NCBI RefSeq assembly: GCF_003097495.1
Contig: NZ_QEOP01000002.1
Location: 744,001-808,000 of the forward strand
Direction: 5' to 3'
Origin: Amnibacterium flavum
GTDB taxonomy: Bacteria; Actinomycetota; Actinomycetes; Actinomycetales; Microbacteriaceae
DNA: 64,000 nucleotides
Shown here: one piece after another, positions 5,533-33,491 of the stretch
Layout of the letters: every line of letters begins with the position of its first letter
Position numbering within the stretch: position 1 is the stretch's first letter
Made by a program: the position numbers and the translations under genes
The notes under the pieces: generated by a model
Seen by the model: only the letters and a program-made list of their open reading frames with translations
Databases searched by the model: none
Told to the model about the DNA's origin: nothing

Positions 5533-5592
5533 GCCGCCGCTCACTGAGCCGGTCAAAGTGGAGGTGCTCGTTTCGGCGGGCTCAACGGGCGG
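5533..5592 (+). repeat. REP-like intergenic repeat, copy 1
   Basis: A roughly 60-bp unit starting GCCGCCGCTCACTGAGCC and ending at CAACGGGCGG. It is about 90% identical to the unit 67 bp downstream. Its two halves (GAGCCGGTC... and ...GTTTCGGCGGGCTC) form an imperfect inverted repeat, as in REP/BIME-type elements. It lies between the DUF4193 terminator and the convergent DUF3093 gene. Confidence 0.75.
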
Positions 5593-5599
5593 GTGCGTT

Positions 5600-5660
5600 G
5601 CCGCCGCTCACTGAGCCGGTCGAAGTGGACATGCTCGTTTCGACGTGCTCAACGGGCGGC
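5600..5660 (+). repeat. REP-like intergenic repeat, copy 2
   Basis: Second copy of the 60-bp unit. The arms GAGCCGGTCGAAG and CGTTTCGACGTGCTC are near-complementary, so RNA or single-stranded DNA could fold into a hairpin. It ends 10 bp before the DUF3093 stop codon. Confidence 0.75.
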
Positions 5661-29961: not shown

Positions 29962-31176
29962 TCAGCCGGCTGAGATCGACTCGCGTGCGGGGCGCGCCGG
30001 TCGCGTACGGCGCCAGACGAGGAAGCTGGCGACGGACCCGATCACCGCGAGCAGGACGATCCAGCTGGTGATCGCCGCGGGCAGCGAGATGTCGGCGATC
30101 GCCCCGAGCGCCAGGGCGAGCACGCCCTGCACCGCGTATCCGGTGGCGTAGAGGCGCGACATCGTCACCGCTTTGGCTTCGGGAGGAGTCTCGGCAACGA
30201 CCACGCCCAGCGCGGTCGACAGGAACGCGGCGAACGCGGCCCCCGCGAGCAGTGAACTGACGGAGAAGAGCAGCAGGTCCCGTTGGGTGGACGCGATCAG
30301 CAGGACGCCCAGTGAGACGACCGCGGCGACGGTGCCGAGCACCGCGAGGCGGTGGACGGGGAAGTGGCCGAGAGTCAACCCGCCCGCGCCGATCGCGAGC
30401 GAGAAGAGCGCGATGACGGCTCCTGCGAGGAACGCGTCGTCGGTGCCGAGCAGGTCGCGCGCGATATCGGCCCCGAGCGACAGCACGAGGGCGCCCATTG
30501 CGTAAGCGGCGATCAGAGCGGAAGCACCGGTGGCGATGGCCTTGCGGGGCAGCCGCGGCCGTGACGAGGCACTGTCCGCCTTGCGCACGCGAGCCTCGGG
30601 GTGATCGGGCAGGCGCAGCACCAGGAAGGCGATCCCGATCGCGAGCGCGAAGCCGAGCCAGAACGTCAGGTGCAGGGGGAGCGGCGCGTACTCGATGAGG
30701 GCGCCCGCGATGAGGGAGGCGATCACGAGTCCCGTCGCCGTCGCCAGGATCGTCACCCGGGACACCCGCGCCGCACGACGCTGCGGCTCGAACTCGACCA
30801 GGGCGGCCGTCGCCGCGCTCAGTGCCGTCGCGGTGCCGATCGCCTGGAACAGGCGACCCACGTAGAGGAACGGGAGCGCGGGGGCGAGAGCGAACACGAG
30901 GGACCCGACGGCCAACGAGCTCAGACCGATGAGCATGGTGCGCCGCCGGCCGAGCCGGTCCGACAGGCCGCCCAGGATCAGCATGAGGAACGCGACCGTG
31001 AACGGGTACGCGGCGAAGACCGTCTCGATCTCCTCAGGGTCGAGATGCCACTGCTCGAGGTACAGCGGGAACACCATCGACGGAGAGGCGCTGCCCCACA
31101 GGCAGATGGCGACGACCGAGGCGGACACCCAGAAGGCGGCCGATCCGCTCAACGGCCGAGCAGACGAGCGAACCAT
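29962..31176 (-). CDS. MFS transporter
   Basis: A 404-residue major facilitator superfamily transporter with 12 predicted helices in two halves separated by a polar central loop (EARVRKADSASSRPRLPRKA, about residues 205-225). The loop 2-3 motif GGLSDRLGRRRTMLIG matches the MFS motif A (GxxxDxxGRR). The pattern resembles drug/proton antiporters of the DHA type, but substrate is unknown. ATG 31176 has a GGTGGGG site 5-6 nt upstream; the open frame continues further upstream into the tRNA gene and is not coding there. It lies 100 bp downstream of tRNA-Val(CAC) on the same strand and could receive read-through. Confidence 0.92.
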   Translation of the reverse strand: MVRSSARPLSGSAAFWVSASVVAICLWGSASPSMVFPLYLEQWHLDPEEIETVFAAYPFTVAFLMLILGGLSDRLGRRRTMLIGLSSLAVGSLVFALAPALPFLYVGRLFQAIGTATALSAATAALVEFEPQRRAARVSRVTILATATGLVIASLIAGALIEYAPLPLHLTFWLGFALAIGIAFLVLRLPDHPEARVRKADSASSRPRLPRKAIATGASALIAAYAMGALVLSLGADIARDLLGTDDAFLAGAVIALFSLAIGAGGLTLGHFPVHRLAVLGTVAAVVSLGVLLIASTQRDLLLFSVSSLLAGAAFAAFLSTALGVVVAETPPEAKAVTMSRLYATGYAVQGVLALALGAIADISLPAAITSWIVLLAVIGSVASFLVWRRTRPARPARESISAG

Positions 31177-31276
31177 GGAAACCCCACCCACCAGACTCCG
31201 CGGCGCAAGCCTCAGCGGACTCAGCCTCCGAAACCCCGGAATCAACGAAGGCGGAACAACTGCACAACCAAACGAG

Positions 31277-31349
31277 TGGGCGATACCGGACTCGAACCGA
31301 TGACCTCTTCCGTGTGAAGGAAGCGCGCTACCAACTGCGCCAATCGCCC
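31277..31349 (-). tRNA. tRNA-Val (CAC)
   Basis: A 73-nt cloverleaf on the minus strand. The acceptor arm is GGGCGAT/ATCGCCC with A73, and the anticodon stem is CTTCC/GGAAG around the loop TTCACAC, giving anticodon CAC for GTG codons. The T-arm contains GGTTCGAGTCC. The 3' CCA is not encoded. It is highly similar to the tRNA-Val(GAC) about 350 bp away on the other strand. Confidence 0.97.
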
Positions 31350-31416
31350 GCGCGGACACAATCCTGCCACACCGGCGCACCTCGTCCACGCAGACGACAC
31401 TCCGTCGCGCCTCAAG

Positions 31417-31446
31417 TTGGTGATGGCGCGAAGCATCCGTTAGAGT
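31417..31446 (+). promoter_or_regulatory. Promoter of the tRNA-Gly/Cys/Val cluster
   Basis: TTGGTG (31417-31422) and TAGAGT (31441-31446) are separated by 18 bp, a good housekeeping sigma promoter. Transcription would begin about 24 nt before mature tRNA-Gly. Confidence 0.7.
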
Positions 31447-31476
31447 CGGTGGGCGGTCAGAGATGGCCGATGAAAT

Positions 31477-31548
31477 GCGGATGTGGCGCAGTGGTAGCGC
31501 ATCACCTTGCCAAGGTGAGGGTCGCGAGTTCGAATCTCGTCATCCGCT
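31477..31548 (+). tRNA. tRNA-Gly (GCC)
   Basis: A 72-nt cloverleaf. The acceptor arm is GCGGATG/CATCCGC with U73, and the anticodon loop TTGCCAA gives GCC for GGC codons. The T-loop is GTTCGAATC. It is the first of three plus-strand tRNAs read from the promoter at 31417-31446. CCA is not encoded. Confidence 0.98.
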
Positions 31549-31586
31549 CGAGTGAAGTCTCACGGGACACGTGGGGAACCACACAT

Positions 31587-31657
31587 GGTGGCGTGGCCGA
31601 GAGGCTAGGCAGCGGCCTGCAAAGCCGTCCACACGGGTTCGAATCCCGTCGCCACCT
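31587..31657 (+). tRNA. tRNA-Cys (GCA)
   Basis: A 71-nt cloverleaf with acceptor GGTGGCG/CGCCACC and U73, and anticodon loop CTGCAAA giving GCA. It follows tRNA-Gly by 38 nt. Confidence 0.97.
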
Positions 31658-31699
31658 CACTCACCGAGACAGGCAGTGCTGAGAAGCGCAGTCTCAAAC

Positions 31700-31771
31700 G
31701 GGCGATTGGCGCAGCGGTAGCGCGCTTCCCTGACACGGAAGAGGTCACTGGTTCGATCCCAGTATCGCCCA
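31700..31771 (+). tRNA. tRNA-Val (GAC)
   Basis: A 72-nt cloverleaf with acceptor GGGCGAT/ATCGCCC and A73, anticodon loop CTGACAC giving GAC for GTC codons, and T-arm CTGGTTCGATCCCAG. Its last 24 nt (31748-31771) begin a 111-bp tandem repeat that recurs twice downstream. Confidence 0.98.
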
Positions 31772-31775
31772 CTCG

Positions 31776-31802
31776 AAAAGCCCCGCCATGCGGGGCTTTT
31801 TT
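31776..31802 (+). terminator. Intrinsic terminator of the tRNA cluster (repeat unit 1)
   Basis: A GC-rich stem AAAAGCCCCGC/GCGGGGCTTTT with a CAT loop and T6 run starts 4 nt after tRNA-Val. Confidence 0.95.
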
Positions 31803-31886
31803 GTGTCCGCTACGGGGGATCGAGCAGTGACCTCGCGACGGCATGCGCCGCCGTCGCGCTGGTTCGATCCCAGTATCGCCCACTCG

Positions 31887-31913
31887 AAAAGCCCCGCCGT
31901 GCGGGGCTTTTTT
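31887..31913 (+). terminator. Intrinsic terminator (repeat unit 2)
   Basis: Second copy of the tRNA terminator; the loop is CGT instead of CAT. Confidence 0.9.
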
Positions 31914-31997
31914 CGTGTCCGCTACCGGGATGGAGCAGTGACCTCGCGACGGCATGCGCCGCCGTCGCGCTGGTTCGATCCCAGTATCGCCCACTCG

Positions 31998-32024
31998 AAA
32001 AGCCCCGCCATGCGGGGCTTTTTT
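31998..32024 (+). terminator. Intrinsic terminator (repeat unit 3)
   Basis: Third copy, 8 bp from the stop codon of the convergent membrane protein. A-rich on the left and T-rich on the right, it can serve both strands. Confidence 0.9.
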
Positions 32025-32031
32025 CGTGCAG

Positions 32032-32658
32032 CTAAGCGCGCCACCGGTCGGCGCGCAGCGCTGCCGGAACCACCAAGCCCGCGGCCGCCGCGCCGAGGCC
32101 GCCGACAGCCATGTCGAGGATCGAATCGTCGTAACCGACCAGCACCGAGTCGTCGAGCCTGTTCCCGGCCCACTCTCCGATCTCCCACACGGCCGCAAGA
32201 GCGAGACCGACCGTCAGCGTCGCGACGACCAGCACGACTCGCCGCGGGGGCAGATGCAGGCCCGCACGGTCGGCCGCGACGACCGCGAGCAACGCGAGAA
32301 GTCCGTTGAGGGCGAAATGGACCGGGATATCGATCCAGGGCAGCGAGCGGTACAGGTCGAGCACACTGCACCACGCCGCTAGGAGAAGCACCACCTGCGA
32401 CGAGAGATCGAGTGATGCACGGACGCCGAGGAAACGCGGCGCCACCAGACCCAGCAACGTCAGAGCGAGCACGGCCCCGGCGAGGGGTCCCCAGCCGATG
32501 AGGCCGACGACGAACAGCACCACTCCGAGGGCTCTGATCGCATCCGCCGCCCACTCGAGAGGAGTCCCCGGCGGCACCAGAAAAGTCGACACGAGGGAGG
32601 TGTGGCCGGGTCGGAGAGAGCGATCCGTCTCCGACTCGGACGTCTGGGGTGCATTCAT
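32032..32658 (-). CDS. Multi-pass membrane protein (DUF2238/YjdF-like)
   Basis: A 208-residue integral membrane protein with about six hydrophobic helices. After a polar N-terminus of about 30 residues come paired helices (AIRALGVVLFVVGLIGWGP, AVLALTLLGLVAPRFLG). Then follow YRSLPWIDIPVHFALNGLLA with a membrane His, VVLVVATLTVGLALAAVWEIGEW with conserved Glu residues, and DDSILDMAVGGLGAAAAGLVV. The order His...WEIxEW...D-x2-DM is that of the DUF2238/YjdF family, which I assign with moderate confidence. ATG 32658 overlaps the stop of the upstream phosphatase-fold gene by 4 nt, so the two are an operon. Confidence 0.75.
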   Translation of the reverse strand: MNAPQTSESETDRSLRPGHTSLVSTFLVPPGTPLEWAADAIRALGVVLFVVGLIGWGPLAGAVLALTLLGLVAPRFLGVRASLDLSSQVVLLLAAWCSVLDLYRSLPWIDIPVHFALNGLLALLAVVAADRAGLHLPPRRVVLVVATLTVGLALAAVWEIGEWAGNRLDDSVLVGYDDSILDMAVGGLGAAAAGLVVPAALRADRWRA

Positions 32659-33491
32659 GGAATGTCGGCGCTCCCGGTCGTCGGTTCGAGCACGGCGATG
32701 ACGGGTTCATGGTCCGAGGCGGCCTTGCCCTCGAACCGGCGGCCGAGCACGGCCGCCTCCCGGACTCGAAGCGCGGAGCCGACGAATATCCAATCGATCC
32801 GCGCCCCGAGGCGCGGGCGACCATAGTTCGATAGCGTGCGGTAGGCCGGCGAGGTTCGCCGGTCGGCAGCCGACCACGAGTCGCGCAGCGCCCCACCATC
32901 GAGCAGCGCGCGAACAGCAGCGGATCCTCCGCGCGCGTTCAGGTCGCCCATCACGACCACCGATGGCCCGAGCGAGAGTGCCACCTCCCGCAGCCGGTGG
33001 GCGGATGCGAGACGCGACCTGGGAGAGAACGGGTCGAGATGCGTGTTGACGACGGAGAGCTGACCGCCGTTGGTCTGGTCCGCGAATGTCGCCACGGTGG
33101 CGATGCGCGGGAACACATTGCCCCAGCTCCGAGAACCGGGAACATTGGGGTGGTCGGACAGAGCCGTCTGATGCCAGTGCAGGAGCTCGAGGCGGGACGA
33201 GTCGAAGTAGATGGTGCACCGCTCATCCGACCCGTCGGCGTTGCGTCCGTTTCCGATTCGTCGGTAGGTGCTTCCGAGGCCTTCGAGCACGGCGTCGTCC
33301 TGGTCGGGAAGAGCCTCCTGCACGCCCAGGACACTGGGTGCTGCCTCTGCAACCAGCTGCTGCACGAGAGGCGCCCTCCGGCTCCAGCTCTCGAGGCGGG
33401 GTCGGAGGGTCGGCACGTGCTGCCGGCGCAGGTTGAACGACATCACACGGATGCCTCGCCGGCGTGCGTCCGGAGACTCGGAGGTCGGCAT
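32655..33491 (-). CDS. Endonuclease/exonuclease/phosphatase family protein (soluble)
   Basis: A 278-residue EEP-fold metal-dependent phosphodiesterase. Family motifs are VMSFNLRRQ near the N-terminus, GVQEALPDQ with the metal Glu, VVNTHLDPFSPRSR, VVMGDLNARGG and the final SDHEPVIAVL with the catalytic Asp-His. No signal peptide is seen. ATG 33491 lies 6 nt after TAACGT, a leaderless arrangement, and is preferred to the in-frame TTG at 33497. It is coupled to the downstream membrane protein by a 4-nt overlap. Such proteins act on DNA, lipids or phosphoesters; the substrate cannot be read from the sequence. Confidence 0.88.
   Translation of the reverse strand: MPTSESPDARRRGIRVMSFNLRRQHVPTLRPRLESWSRRAPLVQQLVAEAAPSVLGVQEALPDQDDAVLEGLGSTYRRIGNGRNADGSDERCTIYFDSSRLELLHWHQTALSDHPNVPGSRSWGNVFPRIATVATFADQTNGGQLSVVNTHLDPFSPRSRLASAHRLREVALSLGPSVVVMGDLNARGGSAAVRALLDGGALRDSWSAADRRTSPAYRTLSNYGRPRLGARIDWIFVGSALRVREAAVLGRRFEGKAASDHEPVIAVLEPTTGSADIP

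Follow-up and report, generated by a model that had tools for sequence, protein, structure and literature searches.

A two-unit array of tRNA-Val(GAC) 3' ends in Amnibacterium flavum resembles in plan the tRNA-linked repeats of Escherichia coli

In the 64,000-nucleotide stretch of the Amnibacterium flavum genome analyzed here (the window), the tRNA-Val(GAC) gene is followed by two further copies of its own 3' end, which raises the question of what kind of element repeats the end of a tRNA gene and how it is kept. Tandem Repeats Finder reports a tandem repeat at positions 31748 to 32028, with a period of 111, 2.5 copies and 96% matches, and the 24-nt tRNA-Val tail, CTGGTTCGATCCCAGTATCGCCCA, is present as exact copies that start at 31748, 31859 and 31970; there were no further matches to this tail elsewhere in the 64-kb window at up to 3 mismatches, and none in 100 shuffles. 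ARAGORN calls a single full tRNA-Val(GAC), at 31700-31772, as part of a Gly-Cys-Val cluster, and a divergent tRNA-Val(CAC) gene, whose tail was not found again in the window when up to 3 mismatches were allowed. A sequence-only reading of this DNA had described a 111-bp array that repeats the tRNA-Val(GAC) tail and its terminator, of which only the first copy is a full tRNA, together with a hairpin in the spacer; the repeat analysis and the exact tails bore out the first point, ARAGORN the second, and the terminators and the hairpin are present as they were described. The features of the locus are as follows.

31276..31349, minus strand: tRNA-Val(CAC), the divergent neighbor (ARAGORN)
31700..31772, plus strand: tRNA-Val(GAC), the one complete tRNA in the array (ARAGORN; Rfam RF00005, 69.2 bits); its tail is 31748-31771
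31776..31802, plus strand: intrinsic terminator 1, AAAAGCCCCGC-CAT-GCGGGGCTTTTTT (sequence and fold)
31807..31833, plus strand: unit 1, tRNA 3' end in inverted orientation, diverged, covering acceptor, T-arm and variable loop
31834..31858, plus strand: unit 1 hairpin, a 9-bp stem CGCGACGGC/GCCGTCGCG with the 7-nt loop ATGCGCC, abutting the tail (sequence, fold and covariation)
31859..31882, plus strand: unit 1 copy of the tRNA-Val tail, identical at 24/24 nt (exact match)
31887..31913, plus strand: terminator 2 (sequence)
31920..31944, plus strand: unit 2, tRNA 3' end in inverted orientation (local score of 30 versus a mean of 11.3 in shuffles; 0/500 as high)
31945..31969, plus strand: unit 2 hairpin, the same sequence as the unit 1 hairpin (sequence)
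31970..31993, plus strand: unit 2 copy of the tRNA-Val tail (exact match)
31998..32024, plus strand: terminator 3, the end of the array, just before a convergent open reading frame at 32032-32658 on the minus strand (sequence)

We have shown that each unit consists of a terminator-bearing 3' flank, an inverted tRNA 3' end, a base-paired hairpin block and a copy of the tail. The second of these parts goes beyond the sequence-only reading: in each spacer, the 5' half corresponds to the tRNA 3' end in inverted orientation, and its local score in unit 1 was 30, compared to a shuffle mean of 11.2, with none of 500 shuffles as high. Both inverted copies terminate in GTGACCT (31827-31833 and 31938-31944). 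When one strand is folded, the inverted T-arm, the hairpin and the T-arm of the following tail form a single long bulged hairpin. After each of the three tails there is a hairpin plus T run that resembles a terminator, and the earlier suggestion of a local duplication that stacks terminators fits the array. A consensus terminator scanner called no terminators in the array; therefore, the terminator calls rest on sequence and fold. Elsewhere in the window, at 5533-5659, there is a 67-bp tandem repeat of about 1.9 copies with GTTTCGACGGGCTCAACGGGCGG, which resembles another palindromic repeat family.

Tail repeats are also present at several other tRNAs of this genome, a second feature beyond the sequence-only reading, as shown by a scan behind 46 Rfam tRNA matches that aimed at 600 bp (four calls had less, the minimum being the 76 bp behind tRNA-Val(CAC)). 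At up to 2 mismatches, 8 of the 46 ARAGORN tRNA calls, one of which is spurious, had their own tail repeated downstream, namely Val-GAC, Ala-TGC, Arg-TCT, Gly-CCC, Val-TAC, Arg-CCG, Leu-CAA and Leu-TAG; at up to 4 mismatches Ala-GGC was added, with 4 mismatches (9/46). The cross-tRNA control gave 1/2040 and 10/2040 at these two thresholds. In Leucobacter edaphi the corresponding figures were 2/45 and 3/45 tRNAs, with 0/1954 in the control for both. The repeat units can yield false tRNA calls, which is a hazard for annotation: ARAGORN placed a spurious tRNA-Phe(GAA) within the unit behind tRNA-Arg(CCG) (L208; C1:1534450-1535200 of the A. flavum genome).

The anatomy of the unit recurs behind tRNA-Val in many genera of the Microbacteriaceae. 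At up to 1 mismatch, 374 of 398 family genomes contained the tail pattern, and 81 contained it two or more times, the latter a figure that was counted by hand and that includes 11 genomes that were not fetched, their tails being more than 300 bp apart or on separate contigs (G127, G181, G203, G215, G241, G270, G275, G287, G388, G391 and G393). The second copies were mostly of three kinds: full second tRNAs, the far ends of inserts, and tails 69 to 138 bp away. One exception, in G216 (L103), has its hairpin-tail unit 1.16 kb away from the tRNA, with repeated sequence between them. Close tails of the third kind were present behind tRNA-Val in at least 31 of the 398 genomes and in 16 of 85 genera, the genera having been tallied by hand. 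A fixed stem test, which called for an 8-bp stem abutting the tail with at most 1 mismatch, was passed by 40 of 47 close tails, defined as lying within 140 bp of the previous tail (46 were distinct, since G314 was fetched twice), and by 0 of 118 other tails, the one extra pass being a run of N. By genome, 26 of the 31 had a passing unit and G075, G087, G175, G325 and G396 did not; the close pairs in G346 and G148 are full second tRNAs, not units. Named carriers are L. edaphi, Leucobacter salsicius, Leucobacter chromiireducens, Leucobacter chironomi, Gulosibacter chungangensis and Salinibacterium sedimenticola. A unit lies behind tRNA-Val(CAC) in L. salsicius, in addition to the Val-GAC locus there, and in G259 (L089 and L112). 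In L083, L088 and L089, both of two tRNA-Val loci have hairpin-tail units of their own, and in L083 and L088 the entire Gly-Cys-Val cluster is duplicated. A search of 396 genomes of the order with covariance model R1 matched three, the A. flavum genome and two of the same family; with 12 candidates scored per genome, this result says little on absence elsewhere. The copies within the A. flavum array are not identical, differing by A/G in the terminator loop and by changes in the spacer, which argues against a pure assembly duplication; with arrays recurring across many independent assemblies, that candidate was ruled out.

The sequence-only reading had also proposed that the array might be the scar of an integrative element or a landing pad. 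In that case an integrase acting on the tail would have left the units behind as a series of attR sites. Integrative elements do use this tRNA in relatives, and tRNA-Val(GAC) is a hotspot for integration across the family: in 10 cases an insert of about 5 to 19 kb, with a Phage_integrase gene next to one of its ends, separates the tRNA from a far copy of its tail (L114, L115, L117, L118 and L120 to L125), and in four other inserts (L108, L109, L113 and L119) a motif screen found no integrase. The hairpin, however, is absent there, since none of the far tails of the 10 integrase-bearing inserts passed the stem test. Similarly, among the 64 viral contigs with the tail, one of which was cut at its edge, the 9-bp stem was found at up to 1 mismatch in 0 of 63, and two of these 63 had a stem with 2 mismatches; in many viral contigs the tails are tRNA genes rather than att sites, and many others, in favor of the att reading, carry a longer tRNA-Val 3' core and no tRNA. 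When the unit was compared with phages and plasmids by BLAST, the matches were weak or confined to the tRNA tail.

Two further loci might appear to link units with insertion, since a hairpin unit lies 132 bp past the far tail of the G314 insert (L120, 8865-9020) and a degraded hairpin-tail unit lies just past that of the G225 insert (L109, near 3304 on the minus strand); however, this arrangement is expected if an element entered a tRNA that already bore a unit. The A. flavum genome has two tyrosine recombinases, of which one passes the XerD model and the other has XerC as its best match, below the XerC cutoff; neither of these points to a resident or relic integrase, and the hairpin-tail junction of the array is not shared by the far tails of real elements. 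The array shares with att sites at tRNA genes a full tRNA on one side and a tail copy on the other, but the units of this kind are 69 to 138 bp apart, mostly with a hairpin before the tail, which the far tails of the integrase inserts do not have, and the same arrangement is seen at several different tRNAs. The att scar was rejected as a candidate on the hairpin-free far tails of real elements and on the two tyrosine recombinases of the genome, both of Xer type; we consider an integrative origin of the array very improbable and the att reading largely refuted.

Within the genus, the array is present in one of nine genomes, that of A. flavum alone. In G008 a decayed spacer and the hairpin are kept and the tail copy is absent; therefore, the array is a trait subject to gain or loss. 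An equal unit number in all strains, which the sequence-only reading had named as counting against it, was not what these genomes showed. The window hairpin was found in none of the eight other genus genomes at up to 3 mismatches and at two places in its own genome, both within the array.

Across the family, the hairpin block takes two shapes. The S type, as in the window, has a 9-bp stem and a short loop, often ATGCNYC. The L type, held mainly by Leucobacter, Gulosibacter and some others, has an outer stem of 10 bp enclosing an inner stem of 7 to 10 bp with a 3- to 4-nt loop and, on the 3' side, a 4- to 6-nt bulge with a final A in all patterns but one (CTCAT); the lengths of its stem, bulge and loop are nearly constant. 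We have shown that pairing is maintained while the sequence of the stem changes between species. In the L type, 13 of 17 pairs have changed on both sides (score, 0.647; shuffle mean, 0.199; 0/500), as have 7 of 9 pairs in the S type (0.425; shuffle mean, 0.087; 0/500), and both scores also exceed slid controls; two of the five measures are weak for the L type, double-change pairs being reached by 17/500 shuffles and further pair types by 209/500. These alignments held 13 of 15 distinct S-type units and 15 of 30 distinct L-type units, the L set excluding near-duplicates and rows that MAFFT had displaced by one base. An inverted T-arm lies to the left of the hairpin in 38 of 48 units, at no more than 2 of 200 shuffles.

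Pairing that is conserved through compensatory change, in units that lie downstream of tRNA genes and between terminators, would suit a structured small RNA expressed by read-through of terminator 1, in the manner of RrA, RrB, RrF or RttR of E. coli. A precedent is provided by three rRNA-operon tRNA-linked repeats (TLRs) of E. coli, for which PMC8144298 describes transcription, processing, binding to Hfq and CsrA, and conservation as small RNAs in Enterobacteriales; as presented in that report, TLRs had no known function until this protein binding was reported (PMC8144298). The imperfect pairs point the other way. From 56 hairpin-tail rows, 8 were dropped (two N runs, two att sites, one real tRNA and three degraded units, including the one past the far tail in G225), so that the pair counts cover 48 rows, 45 of them distinct. 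On the tRNA-coding strand these units have 23 A.C and 5 G.T pairs, the opposite of what is expected of an RNA that tolerates G.U, compared to 15 A.C and 31 G.T pairs in 97 terminator-like control stems of the fetched loci, which were scanned on both strands under a loose rule (Fisher P = 3.9e-5); the rows are related rather than independent, and a mutational strand bias could produce the same pattern. Collapsing the hairpin events by species, by hand, left 19 versus 5 (binomial P = 0.007). This excess suggests that the hairpin is maintained through the opposite strand or by a process at the DNA level, rather than through an RNA from the tRNA promoter. The distribution, moreover, is patchy even inside one genus. 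We therefore regard a tRNA-derived small RNA as possible but unlikely, and as less favored than the DNA-level reading; nevertheless, the nearly constant architecture of the L type over several genera could instead reflect a functional RNA or DNA site.

Evidence on how such a hairpin may come to lie at a tRNA end was obtained from another hairpin type of the genus. One block, GTGGGCCCCTGGCGCAYGCTTGCGCC(A/G)GGGATCGA, in which GTGGGCC is followed by a 10-bp hairpin and GGGATCGA, is common to the Ala-TGC, Arg-TCT and Val-TAC units and runs on into the own tail of each tRNA. The intact tRNA-Arg(TCT) gene is preceded, about 80 bp on its 5' side, by a second copy of this tRNA with a degraded acceptor end, in which a variant of the block (CCGG for CTGG) lies between the T-stem and TCGA and replaces GT; this interrupted copy, at C2:359578-359678 (L200:1979-2079, minus strand), contains a 30-nt hairpin and has an Infernal tRNA score of 32.9 bits. 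In G001 a tRNA-Val(TAC) copy has the same block inserted in its T-loop. We have thus shown T-loop insertion into a tRNA copy for this hairpin type. In 13 of the 15 tRNA-adjacent blocks of the genus, read by eye and with four of the 15 belonging to one array, the left 4 nt are the end of the T-stem strand of the tRNA (the exceptions are L204 and L240). Together, the left-flank match and the T-loop copies indicate that this block type resembles an insertion into the T-arm; the Val-GAC units are of the inverted type, without the T-loop geometry, and the insertion evidence would extend to them by analogy alone. The block is also found away from tRNAs: in G005, a sister species in which 10 places were found, all eight fetched loci with the block have no tRNA, and at seven of them it is in a repeated CTCGA-rich context. 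The dispersed repeats at these tRNA-free places have the form TCTCGATGCGCTTCGCTTACTCGACCCTGGGCCC-hairpin-AGGGACTCGATACGC (L232 and L234 to L239). Mobility is suggested for this hairpin type, not for that of the window, which is confined to the array. In G001 an array of four hairpin blocks, the first three about 122 bp apart, lies behind tRNA-Arg(TCT) (L244).

It can also be envisioned that fold-back (quasi-palindrome) template switching alone produced the units, with self-templated correction keeping the stems paired and with neither a mobile element nor a function. The inverted T-arm to the left of most units is what such copying would leave, and stems that differ between genera yet stay paired, as well as inner stems that differ between the units of one array (L061), are in keeping with it. 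However, a single hairpin block common to several tRNAs and to non-tRNA loci of the genus, and the near constancy of stem, bulge and loop lengths in the L type, are hard to reconcile with fold-back copying as the sole process, which in our estimation has a low probability.

TLRs of E. coli were first described in 1978. They are spread over ten loci with one to five units each, 22 in all, and a unit ends in 18 to 19 bp equal to the 3' end of the tRNA or rRNA gene that precedes it, as set out in PMC8144298, according to which a function claimed for one tyrT unit was later withdrawn. In our analysis, DNA resembling one tyrT unit was found in 4695 of 5426 E. coli genomes, at a median of 3 places and a maximum of 14. 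In E. coli K-12 a tail repeat lies behind 7 of 29 tRNA genes (argQ, argZ, argY, argV, lysV, proK and tyrV) at nine chosen loci, when an 18-nt tail is sought at up to 2 mismatches within 700 bp, the arg matches partly sharing targets. The A. flavum array is similar to these elements (the 178-bp tyrT/tyrV repeats; rttR; RF00391) in that copies of the tRNA 3' end lie downstream of the gene, here 24 nt long and two in number beyond the original; in having from one to five units per locus, here two; in involving several tRNAs of one genome; and, by eye, in the inverted tail on the left and the structured block before the tail, which the E. coli repeats also show. Unlike the TLRs, the array belongs to a distant phylum, its block is shorter, its hairpin sequence differs by genus, and each unit in the window has its own terminator. 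Moreover, the Rfam RtT model RF00391 had no match in the window from 31000 to 33000 at E values up to 5, or in ten loci from this genome and genus at E values up to 1, and gave four matches in the E. coli control; therefore, the likeness to E. coli TLRs is one of plan, not of demonstrated homology or descent, and RtT homology was rejected for the units tested. Our literature search, in which the phrase "tRNA-linked repeats" was not itself a query, found no TLRs outside the Enterobacterales.

Other known systems are less similar. REP/REPIN sequences and the Rickettsia palindromic elements share with our units a short tagged palindrome (GTGGGCC or GTGACC plus a hairpin), and the dispersal of another hairpin block of the genus at non-tRNA places in G005 is REP-like; however, the REP tag is given as GTAG or CGTC in PMC3733652, the hairpin of the window is preceded by GTGACCT, and it lacks many dispersed copies. 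The Y1 (RAYT) transposase domain PF01797 was found in none of four genomes (G000, G005, G001 and L. edaphi G164), with 5 of 14 controls positive, and mobilization by a resident RAYT/IS200 enzyme was ruled out on this basis. In Enterobacteria, rtT-like elements are described as dispersed and as members of BIMEs (PMC2965389); thus, both E. coli and the Microbacteriaceae have tRNA-linked units together with related dispersed palindromes. The anatomy of our units also invites comparison with integrons. The attC arrays of integrons are made of folded sites with a conserved shape and a variable sequence, as are our arrays, but the units described here are tied to tRNA tails and have no cassette genes, and neither of the two tyrosine recombinases of the A. 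flavum genome is an integron integrase at the curated cutoff.

With moderate confidence, we favor the view that the array is a two-unit element of TLR type that originated as a palindrome at the T-arm, changed its unit number by unequal exchange, offers the cell at most extra terminators and is kept up at the DNA level or through the opposite strand. The process would start with a short palindrome that inserts at the T-arm of a tRNA 3' end, or is made there by fold-back copying; unequal exchange between the repeated tails and terminators would then add or remove units. Any role for the cell may go no further than additional terminators shielding the tRNA cluster from the convergent gene, and extra termination is plausibly a side effect of the array. 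As for the hairpin, its maintenance probably depends on a process at the level of DNA or on an opposite-strand transcript, rather than on an RNA from the tRNA promoter.

In conclusion, by analogy of its parts, the closest known counterpart of the array is the TLR plan, of which it would be a variant in a distant bacterial group, with any function putative. A broader suggestion, which we put forward tentatively and with some doubt, is that tRNA-parasitic palindromes are widespread: hairpins of 25 to 50 nt might enter bacterial T-arms as folded bottom-strand DNA, capture the tail and the terminator and multiply as arrays. If such a class exists, E. coli TLRs would be one lineage of it. The same plan in the Microbacteriaceae, together with a block inside a T-loop and the same block elsewhere in the genus, would provide a testable origin for TLRs.
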